Notes under the pieces: generated by a model
What the model was told of the DNA's origin: nothing
Seen by the model: only the letters and a program-made list of their open reading frames with translations
The model's database searches: none
Assembly (NCBI GenBank): GCA_004282745.1
Contig: SHMT01000031.1
Coordinates: 1-57,408, forward strand
Direction: 5' to 3'
Length of the DNA: 57,408 nt
DNA from: Candidatus Scalindua sp. SCAELEC01
Lineage (GTDB): Bacteria; Planctomycetota; Brocadiia; Brocadiales; Scalinduaceae
Shown: positions 15,825 to 18,723 of the stretch, piece by piece
How positions within the stretch are numbered: position 1 is the first letter of the stretch
Layout of the letters: every line of letters begins with the position of its first letter
Made by a program: the position numbers and the translations under genes

Positions 15825-16973
15825 TTACAATAGAACCATGTTGTCACGGTGAATTACTTCGTCATAAGGTTTTGCCCCTAAGGTCTTTTTTATCAAAGAA
15901 GTGCTCATTCCCTTAATTTTAAGGACCTCGTCTTTCGAATAATTAATAAGGCCTCTAGCTACCTCTTTATCTCCATCAGTATCCATAATCGATACAATAT
16001 CCCCCTTGACAAAGTTTCCTACAACATTGACAAGGCCAGAAGGTAATAAACTTTTCCCCCTCCTATGTAAAGCATCACATGCCCCTTCGTCGATAAAAAT
16101 TTTCCCATTTGGCCTTACAGAAAAACCAATCCACCGTTTGCGGCTTGCAATCTTTTTCTTGCTCGGAAGAAACAGTGTTCCGACATTATCAAAATTCACT
16201 ATCTTTTGCAAAATATCGGGATGCTTTCCATTTGCAATAATTGCCGCTTCGCCTGCATTAGTAACATCTCCGGCTGCCTTCAGTTTACTTTCCATCCCCC
16301 CCGTACCTTGACGTGTTTTCATTTTAAATGCAAGTTTTTTTATATCATCAGAAACCTCATCCACAATTGGCACTACGATATTCCTCTGTCCCGTTTTTGG
16401 AGGTTTCGTATATAATCCGTCTATAGAAGACAAAAGAATCAACAGATCCGCATGGAGGAGATTTGTAACCATTGCCGACAAAACATCATTATCGCCGAAT
16501 GCTATTTCGTCTATTGCAATCGTATCGTTTTCATTAACAATGGGAATTGTCTTAAAACGTAACAAGGTATGTAATGTGTTAGATGTGTTCAAATATCTTT
16601 GCCGATCTTCAAAGTCCTGTCTTGTTAATAGTAATTGCGCGGCATGGTAACCGTGGCTCTTAAAGCATTCATTGTAAACTTCCATAAGTTTACCTTGTCC
16701 AATTGCCGCAGCTGCCTGAAGCTCGGGAAGAATAGTTGGCCTTTTAGTGCGACCCATTGCACTGATTCCAGCTCCAATTGCACCAGATGTAACAACAACA
16801 ACTTTGTATCCCTTTGTGCAAAGCAGTATAATTTGCCTCGACAAGTCCATAATTTGATTATTATCTAAAATTCCATCTGCATTCGTAAGTACATGTGTCC
16901 CTATTTTTACAACAATTTTATTTACTTTAGATAATGTTTCTTTTCGGATATTCATAGTTTTTTTATCTGCCAC
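15825..16973 (-). CDS. proB: Glutamate 5-kinase with PUA domain
   Basis: 382 residues. The amino-acid kinase domain starts VNKIVVKIGTHVL, has VVTSGAIGAG, the PIVNENDTI segment with FGDNDVLSAMV, and KMKTRQGTGGMESKL. A PUA domain follows from about residue 285 (RKRWIGFSVRPNGKIFIDEGA to the end). It phosphorylates glutamate as the first step of proline synthesis and is normally feedback-inhibited by proline. No proA is adjacent. With pruA in the same window, both directions between glutamate and proline are partly represented. Confidence 0.95.
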   Translation of the reverse strand: MADKKTMNIRKETLSKVNKIVVKIGTHVLTNADGILDNNQIMDLSRQIILLCTKGYKVVVVTSGAIGAGISAMGRTKRPTILPELQAAAAIGQGKLMEVYNECFKSHGYHAAQLLLTRQDFEDRQRYLNTSNTLHTLLRFKTIPIVNENDTIAIDEIAFGDNDVLSAMVTNLLHADLLILLSSIDGLYTKPPKTGQRNIVVPIVDEVSDDIKKLAFKMKTRQGTGGMESKLKAAGDVTNAGEAAIIANGKHPDILQKIVNFDNVGTLFLPSKKKIASRKRWIGFSVRPNGKIFIDEGACDALHRRGKSLLPSGLVNVVGNFVKGDIVSIMDTDGDKEVARGLINYSKDEVLKIKGMSTSLIKKTLGAKPYDEVIHRDNMVLL

Positions 16974-16999
16974 AACCTAAAAATTACAACAAAAAGCAC

Positions 17000-17027
17000 T
17001 TGACATCTAGTGCCTTTTTGATAACAT
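17000..17027 (+). promoter_or_regulatory. Putative sigma-70-like promoter of the histone-fold gene
   Basis: TTGACA at 17000-17005 and TAACAT at 17022-17027, 16 bases apart, about 43 bases before the GTG start at 17070. The -35 is a consensus match; the spacing is one base short of optimal. Confidence 0.55.
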
Positions 17028-17069
17028 CCCGATCTTTCGATCTTATATGAAGAAACAAAGGAGGGACGT

Positions 17070-17270
17070 GTGGCAAAAAAATCAAAGAAAAAGGAGAGAG
17101 AAATACTTGTAGTTGCTAGTAAAATCAGGGATTATATTAAGGAAAAAGATTGCAACACCTCTGGAGAATTTATCAGTGAACTGAGCGATACAGTTTATTG
17201 TTTAATAGACAAAGCCATAAACAGAGCACAGGAAAACGGACGAAAGACGATTCAAGCAAAGGACGTCTAA
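17070..17270 (+). CDS. Bacterial single histone-fold protein
   Basis: A 66-residue basic protein with a GTG start behind a strong AAAGGAGG ribosome site. After a lysine-rich tail (AKKSKKKER), helix 1 (VVASKIRDYIKEK, about 12-26) is followed by the long helix 2 (GEFISELSDTVYCLIDKAI, about 31-56) and the NGRKTIQAKD loop, which is nearly identical to loop 2 of archaeal histones. It ends there, so helix 3 is very short, as in the Bdellovibrio histone Bd0055 type. DNA binding and dimerisation are inferred from the family. It is monocistronic, divergent from proB and convergent with gatB. Confidence 0.82.
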   Translation: MAKKSKKKEREILVVASKIRDYIKEKDCNTSGEFISELSDTVYCLIDKAINRAQENGRKTIQAKDV

Positions 17271-17283
17271 TGTGTGCAATCCG

Positions 17284-18723
17284 TTACGGGCTGTTTGCCA
17301 ACTTTTCTTTGAAAATCTCTAAGAGAGTTTTTGGGTTTGCTTTCCCTTTTGTAACCTTCATTGACTGACCTACCAAAAAGGACAAAGCGCTCTCTTTACC
17401 ATTGCCATAATCTTCTACGGCCTTTGGGTTTGCTCCAATAATCTCTGATACTAACGAACTTAATTCCGCAGTATTACTTAACGGTTTTAAGTTCTTTTCC
17501 CGCACGACAGTTGGTGCGTCTTTACCGGTATTAGACATCTCAGAAAAAACTTCCTTAGCGATGGCCCCTCCAATTTCTGATTTCATTTCGATTAATTCTA
17601 CGAGCATCTTTGGTGAAATATTAAAGTCCTGGATCTCTTTTTTTTTCTCGTTTAACACCCGAAGTACATCGTTGATTATCCAATTCGTTAACTCCTTTGG
17701 AGAATTGCTCGTTAATTTTACACACTCTTCAAAGTAATCTGAAAGGGATTTACTCTCAGTGAGGATTCCCGCATCATATTCTGAAATAAGATATTCACTG
17801 ACAAATCTTTGATGTCTTTTAGTTGGAAGCTCAGGAATAGTCATCCTGATACTCTCAATGTTTTTCTTGTCTACCAAAATTGGAACAAGATCTGGTTCAG
17901 GGAAATACCGGTAATCATGAGACTCTTCTTTCAAACGCATTCTCCTACTAACGGCACTTATCTCATCCCACAACCTCGTTTCCATAACGATTTGTTCTCC
18001 TCTTTCAAGCAACTCCCTCTGTCTCGATATTTCGTACGCTAATACTTTCAACACCGCTTTCATAGAATTAAGATTTTTAATCTCAACTCTGTTACCAAAA
18101 ACCTGAGCACCTTTTCGACATAATGAGATACTGGCCTCAAAACGTAAAGAACCTTCCTGCATCTTACAATCGGATACACCGATATATAGTAGTATATTTC
18201 TCAACGTATGCATAAAAACTTCAACCTCATCAATACATCTCATATCTGGTTTTGTCACTATCTCAACCAGAGGAACACCCGCTCGGTTGAAATCAATGAG
18301 ACTATAACTGGCATCTGACGCTTCAGGATGGACTAGTTTACCGGCATCTTCTTCAAGATGAACGTTATGTATACCAATCCTATTTTTTTTTCCCTTAACG
18401 TTTAGTTCTATAAAACCATCATTACCAAGGTTAAAATAGTTTTGGGAGATTTGATAATTCTTTGGCAAATCAGGGTAATAATAGTTTTTCCTATCAAAAT
18501 TAACAAAATTATTTATTTCACAATTCAGTGCAAGAGCGGTTTTGACCGTATGTTCAAACGCCTTCCTATTGATAACGGGTAAAACTCCTGGGAGTGCTAA
18601 GCATACAGGGCATGTTTGTGTGTTAGGTTCTGAACCAAATGCCGTACTGCATCCACAAAAAAGTTTTGTATCAGTATCCAGTTCTGCATGAGTTTCCAGT
18701 CCAATTACAACGTCATATTCCAT
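17284..18723 (-). CDS. gatB: Asp-tRNA(Asn)/Glu-tRNA(Gln) amidotransferase subunit B
   Basis: 479 residues with the GatB signature segments: YDVVIGLETHAELDTDTKLFC, QTCPVCLALPG, YYYPDLPKNYQISQ, the EDAGK loop, DFNRAGVPLVEIVTKP and SHDYRYFPEPDL, then the C-terminal YqeY-like tail (ANPKTLLEIFKEKL). It binds mischarged tRNA and activates the glutamate or aspartate with ATP for amidation. It lies 13 bp after gatA, in an operon-like order gatC-gatA-gatB. Confidence 0.97.
   Translation of the reverse strand: MEYDVVIGLETHAELDTDTKLFCGCSTAFGSEPNTQTCPVCLALPGVLPVINRKAFEHTVKTALALNCEINNFVNFDRKNYYYPDLPKNYQISQNYFNLGNDGFIELNVKGKKNRIGIHNVHLEEDAGKLVHPEASDASYSLIDFNRAGVPLVEIVTKPDMRCIDEVEVFMHTLRNILLYIGVSDCKMQEGSLRFEASISLCRKGAQVFGNRVEIKNLNSMKAVLKVLAYEISRQRELLERGEQIVMETRLWDEISAVSRRMRLKEESHDYRYFPEPDLVPILVDKKNIESIRMTIPELPTKRHQRFVSEYLISEYDAGILTESKSLSDYFEECVKLTSNSPKELTNWIINDVLRVLNEKKKEIQDFNISPKMLVELIEMKSEIGGAIAKEVFSEMSNTGKDAPTVVREKNLKPLSNTAELSSLVSEIIGANPKAVEDYGNGKESALSFLVGQSMKVTKGKANPKTLLEIFKEKLANSP

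Follow-up and report, generated by a model that had tools for sequence, protein, structure and literature searches.

A conserved histone gene of an anammox Scalindua looks like a member of the FtF tetramer class

A 66-codon gene of Candidatus Scalindua sp. SCAELEC01 encodes a genuine histone-fold protein, and its sequence makes it likely that this histone belongs to the face-to-face (FtF, tetramer) class and not to the dimer class of Bdellovibrio Bd0055/HBb. The gene occupies positions 17070–17270 (+) of the window, by which we mean the whole stretch of 57,408 nucleotides analysed here, one of the contigs of a 4.59 Mb genome. We take the host to be an anammox bacterium because it encodes hydrazine synthase alpha (PF18582), which occurs in 39 of the 59 genomes of our order sample (the host genome and its relatives). 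Experimental work on bacterial histones covers very few organisms, and our comparisons would now place an anammox histone in a class of DNA-wrapping tetramers. To the published picture they add a correction of class, a conserved proB–histone–gatB locus and a conserved promoter.

Fold and class of the Scalindua histone

The open reading frame runs from a GTG start to a TAA stop and its 66-aa product is MAKKSKKKEREILVVASKIRDYIKEKDCNTSGEFISELSDTVYCLIDKAINRAQENGRKTIQAKDV, with a computed pI of 9.2 and a net charge of +3.5 at pH 7. A lysine-rich N-terminal tail, MAKKSKKKERE (17070–17102, +), contains AKKSKKK, and the C terminus reads NGRKTIQAKDV. We modelled a single chain with AlphaFold2 from a 44-sequence alignment, whose rows were hand-picked as FtF-type. 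The model has a mean pLDDT of 83, with residues 11–66 well predicted and residues 1–6 below 50, and supersedes an earlier 13-sequence prediction (pLDDT 66). Its helices span residues 16–25 and 32–55, followed by a one-turn helix 3 at 63–65. The top Foldseek match in the PDB is HLp of Leptospira perolatii (E 1.2e-4; TM 0.82 for the query and 0.96 for the target; rmsd 0.7 Å). HBb/Bd0055 of Bdellovibrio bacteriovorus, whose chains are matches 3–6, and HTkC of Thermococcus kodakarensis come next, followed by lower-scoring archaeal and eukaryotic histones. A phmmer search of the PDB also finds HLp (E 4.8e-11) and HBb (E 3.3e-8).

The first-pass annotation had proposed a true histone fold with a minimal third helix, and the model bears out both points: it has the helix 3 of 3–4 residues and the shorter helix 2 that mark the alpha3-truncated histone fold, which, as modelled, is the fold of this protein. 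That annotation also likened the protein to Bd0055. HLp, HBb and HTkC all superpose on the model at rmsd 0.6–1.5 Å, with VIA-align Z values of 8.7 and 8.5 for HLp, 8.1–8.2 for HBb and 7.7 for HTkC. The fold by itself cannot pick between the tetramer and dimer classes, because HLp and HBb tie within 1 Z.

Is the Scalindua histone, then, a dimer of the Bd0055/HBb type, bending or coating DNA as separate dimers? HBb (PDB 8CMP, 8FVX, 9EZZ) likewise has a short helix 2 and a helix 3 of a single turn, shares the RKT loop, the RD clamp and ~45% identity, and ranks high by fold and second by sequence. However, the residues of the dimer–dimer contact argue against this reading. Schwab et al. (2024, PMC11390915) distinguish FtF histones (tetramers), bacterial dimers and smaller classes among the alpha3 histones, and describe a conserved R48 and N52 in the dimer–dimer contact of FtF histones, both missing from bacterial dimers as that paper presents them. 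HBb, described as a dimer only in PMC11317129 and PMC10627809, is without this Arg and Asn. The Scalindua histone has both, as R52 and N56 (HMM positions 48 and 52). They form part of a C-terminal signature, R52...N56.R58.T60....D65-V66 (17223–17267, +), in which the tetramer residues, the RD clamp and the end of the chain come together (residue roles as given in PMC11390915 and PMC12701072); the RxTxxxxD motif of the loop-2 clamp is present as R58, T60 and D65.

These features hold across an alignment of 81 different histones (59 FtF-type, our own included, and 22 dimer-type; loci L039 and L057 left out), which were labelled by whichever of two profiles scored higher and for the most part are the top-scoring matches rather than a random sample of the 164 matching genomes among 392 sampled from the phylum. 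R52, N56, R58, D65 and K18 are each invariant in the FtF-type set (59/59), and T60 is kept in 58/59. Among the dimer-type sequences the N56 position is Asp in 22/22, residue 66 is F in 22/22, and Arg stands at the R52 position in only 3/22. The chain ends one residue past D65 in 58/59 FtF-type sequences, as it does here, whereas the 22 dimer-type sequences run on for 2 to 17 further residues. The N56 rule is not absolute, because HTkC (PDB 9F2C), which is of the FtF tetramer class and has a truncated helix 3 and R at the R52 position, carries E at the N56 position; it is also archaeal and lacks the tail, unlike the Scalindua histone.

Profiles and phylogeny likewise speak against the dimer reading. 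With a profile built from 13 order-level FtF sequences, HLp reaches 75.1 bits, more than HBb (58.5) or HTkC (48.8), whereas a profile of eight sequences of the order's second, HBb-type paralogue gives HBb 69.9 and HLp 35.5 bits. In a tree of 83 rows, from which the archaeal doublet L039, the broken L057 and L058 were omitted, one supported branch (97/92) separates 59 FtF rows from 21 dimer rows. It parts the Scalindua histone from HBb and the HBb-type paralogues, with HLp among the FtF rows and HBb among the dimer rows. Deep placements in this tree are unreliable, because it has only 66 columns and the very long branch (2.29) of the archaeal FtF histone HTkC joins next to the dimer group. In both profiles and tree the Scalindua histone groups with bacterial FtF members. 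Hence the resemblance to Bd0055 stands as regards the alpha3-truncated fold, but not as regards FtF residues, profile scores or mechanism class. We regard a Bd0055/HBb-type dimer as unlikely and, on these sequence comparisons, membership of the FtF tetramer class as likely.

HLp (PDB 9QT0, 9QT1, 9QT2) suggests how an FtF-type Scalindua histone could work. According to Hu et al. (2025, PMC12701072), R49, S52 and N53 of one HLp chain contact F63, T61 and R55 opposite, and the tetramer wraps ~60 bp. Nuclease-protected fragments of 35–72 bp are reported for HLp. The two proteins share an N-terminal tail and ~40% identity. HLp R49, N53, R55 and D62 correspond to R52, N56, R58 and D65 of the Scalindua histone, and the HLp DNA contacts A13, S14, K15, K17, K21, T27, G29 and T57 to A16, S17, K18, R20, K24, T30, G32 and T60. 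In both, the one-turn helix 3 ends just after the clamp Asp. F63, the last residue of HLp, joins the dimer–dimer contact (PMC12701072), and the terminal carboxylate belongs to the interface in archaeal D4GZE0 (PMC11390915). A helix 3 kept short because the chain end sits in the FtF interface fits this published role. The short helix is thus probably a conserved chain end that takes part in the tetramer contact as in HLp, not a product of decay.

We think it quite probable that the Scalindua histone is a homotetramer that wraps ~60 bp of DNA in a cell that also has two HU genes. The long central helices would pair two chains into a histone dimer, and two such dimers would meet face to face at either end, with R52 and N56 of one dimer against R58 and the C terminus of the chain in the opposing one. 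Given that the key residues are identical with those of HLp, the product would be a closed, ring-like tetramer. Basic residues of helix 1 (K18, R20, K24) and polar loop residues (T30, G32, T60) would line the ring and, by analogy with HLp, grip the DNA backbone without sequence preference, while the lysine-rich tail may add further non-specific contact. Against the tetramer, E55, K59 and K64 replace HLp S52, T56 and T61, and the model is of a monomer.

Genomic distribution and locus

Histone matches of either type (E ≤ 0.01) occur in 35 of the 59 genomes of the order sample. A full FtF-type gene is present in 26, the host counted: 15 of 17 in the host's own family (f1) and 11 in three others (8/9 in f2, 1/1 in f3, 2/2 in f4). 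In the fifth family (f5) the count is 0/30, and such absences are provisional because several of the order's genomes are incomplete. A 27th genome (G015) has a truncated FtF copy (L027), which is apparently decaying. The HBb-type paralogue is found in 20/59 genomes: 8/30 in f5, 1/2 in f4 and 11/17 in f1, where the count includes a partial copy (G013) and a copy interrupted by an internal stop (G007). A contig-edge fragment of the same type in G008 lies outside the 20. Both types occur together in ten genomes of f1 and in one of f4, and the FtF type alone was seen in the host genome and a congener (G001). At E values up to 10, the 44-row profile picked up no further histone copy in the host genome. 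Two HU-family genes are present there (L041, G000:C55:65615-65881; L042, G000:C61:17083-17349), so the histone is not necessarily the principal chromatin protein. PMC12701072 reports no HU in L. interrogans or L. perolatii, in contrast to the two genes here.

The histone gene lies between proB (glutamate 5-kinase; 15825–16973, −), its divergent neighbour, and gatB (Asp/Glu-tRNA amidotransferase subunit B; 17284–18723, −), its convergent neighbour. This arrangement is conserved across the FtF loci: gatB adjoins the histone gene in 26/26 and proB in 25/26, no proB match being found in the flank of the remaining locus (L021). Neither gene was found in the flanks of 19 second-type loci from the order (L028–L030, L043–L058). 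The neighbours of HLp are different.

So stable a site could point to a histone fold put to non-chromatin use, for example as a local regulator of proB or gatB, by analogy with TAF-type proteins. Two HU genes could cover general packaging, and a whole family (f5) was sampled without the FtF gene. However, the neighbours are housekeeping genes on the opposite strand, the DNA-contact residues are retained, the gene has its own promoter and ribosome site, and the closest studied relative is described as a general DNA-wrapping protein (PMC12701072). We therefore consider a non-chromatin role very unlikely, and continue to favour a DNA-wrapping tetramer.

Upstream signals and reality of the gene

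A sigma-70-like promoter lies at 17000–17027 (+), with a −35 hexamer TTGACA (17000–17005), a 16 bp spacer and a −10 hexamer TAACAT (17022–17027), which is mostly TATTAT in relatives. The call rests on conservation in relatives, because two occurrences of the pattern, where 1.1 are expected, do not clearly exceed chance. All 11 aligned same-family upstream regions, drawn from the own family's 15 full FtF loci, keep TTGAC(A/T)–16 bp–TANNNT, and mean column identity is 0.91 across 16998–17031 versus 0.68 across 16960–16985. A Shine-Dalgarno sequence, AGGAGG (17059–17064, +), stands 5 nt before the GTG, and its GGAG core is invariant in the 11 regions. The annotation's claims of an own promoter and a strong ribosome site are thus borne out. 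This promoter would drive the histone as a nucleoid protein alongside HU.

A small dyad, CAAAAAG...CTTTTTG (16990–17020), surrounds the −35 element and is largely kept in relatives, where it reads AAAAG...CTTTTTTG; a strict pattern matches 9/11 upstream regions. It is possibly an operator or a structural element. A terminator-like repeat (16991–17018) overlaps the histone promoter, and we considered it as a possible end of gatB transcription.

Among named contigs, the closest that carries the gene belongs to a Candidatus Scalindua MAG (88% identity over the match). Third codon positions hold most of the substitutions that separate this gene from six relatives; against one of them (L002), positions 1, 2 and 3 show 6, 2 and 29 differences. 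A mere 66 codons, a GTG start and the absence of a Pfam match above cut-off might suggest a chance open reading frame between proB and gatB, but orthologues in 26 genomes, the third-position bias and matches to solved histones speak against this, and the conservation of the gene and of its promoter and Shine-Dalgarno signals already refutes it.

Routine annotation could overlook the gene, since Pfam and NCBIfam scans of the protein gave weak matches, all under family cut-offs. Indeed, PF00808 matched at best 6 of the 44 FtF members scanned against Pfam, and across the host genome it gave a weak hit at the histone gene and none elsewhere. A PHROGs search returned weak, uninformative matches and nothing else, and the model had no match at E ≤ 0.001 in a viral structure library. 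A phage or mobile origin finds no support in the Pfam, NCBIfam, PHROGs and viral structure searches.

Discussion

Planctomycetota are described as containing both FtF and dimer histones (PMC11390915), and histone genes as persisting in the phylum (PMC10627809). Consistent with these accounts, our FtF-order profile matches 164 of 392 sampled Planctomycetota genomes, with both histone types among the matches. Since FtF histones of Planctomycetota are already published, the Scalindua histone adds a member to a known class. We found no report on this protein in the literature searched on anammox histone proteomics or Scalindua histone-fold proteins, although one may exist elsewhere.

What is the significance of one order holding two histone classes with different distributions? 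It offers a comparison set: members of the Scalindua family with both types, this genus with FtF only, and f5, whose genomes have the HBb type or no histone. The histone may be abundant, divide the work with HU and take part in nucleoid condensation. The first-pass annotation invoked the condensed nucleoids of planctomycetes; the account of condensed nucleoids in PMC3440768 concerns Gemmata, not anammox bacteria.

HLp stands next to L083 (1001–1237) within the planctomycete FtF histones (99/91, in a short alignment), a position that suggests gene transfer. A wider scenario, which we offer tentatively and find doubtful, is that Scalindua-type anammox bacteria have a nucleosome-like tetrameric histone together with HU, from a locus fixed before the order diversified, and that many add a dimer-type histone. 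Their chromosome would then be packaged by wrapping, bending and HU, and the essential histone of Leptospira would have come from the planctomycete FtF radiation.

Several histones met in the searches have unusual architectures. Four planctomycete FtF histones (L087 887–1186, L094 887–1186, L077 1435–1686 and L090 929–1186) have long lysine/alanine-rich N-terminal tails with KKTAKKTAKK repeats. Tails of this type recall those of linker histones. On an archaeal MAG contig, one open frame (L039, 3010–3363) encodes two histone folds, a fused FtF doublet in which both folds carry the Arg/Asn FtF residues. Finally, an HBb-type histone of Myxococcota (L038, 2677–3213) has a cysteine-rich N-terminal region and is possibly a ZZ-type histone.
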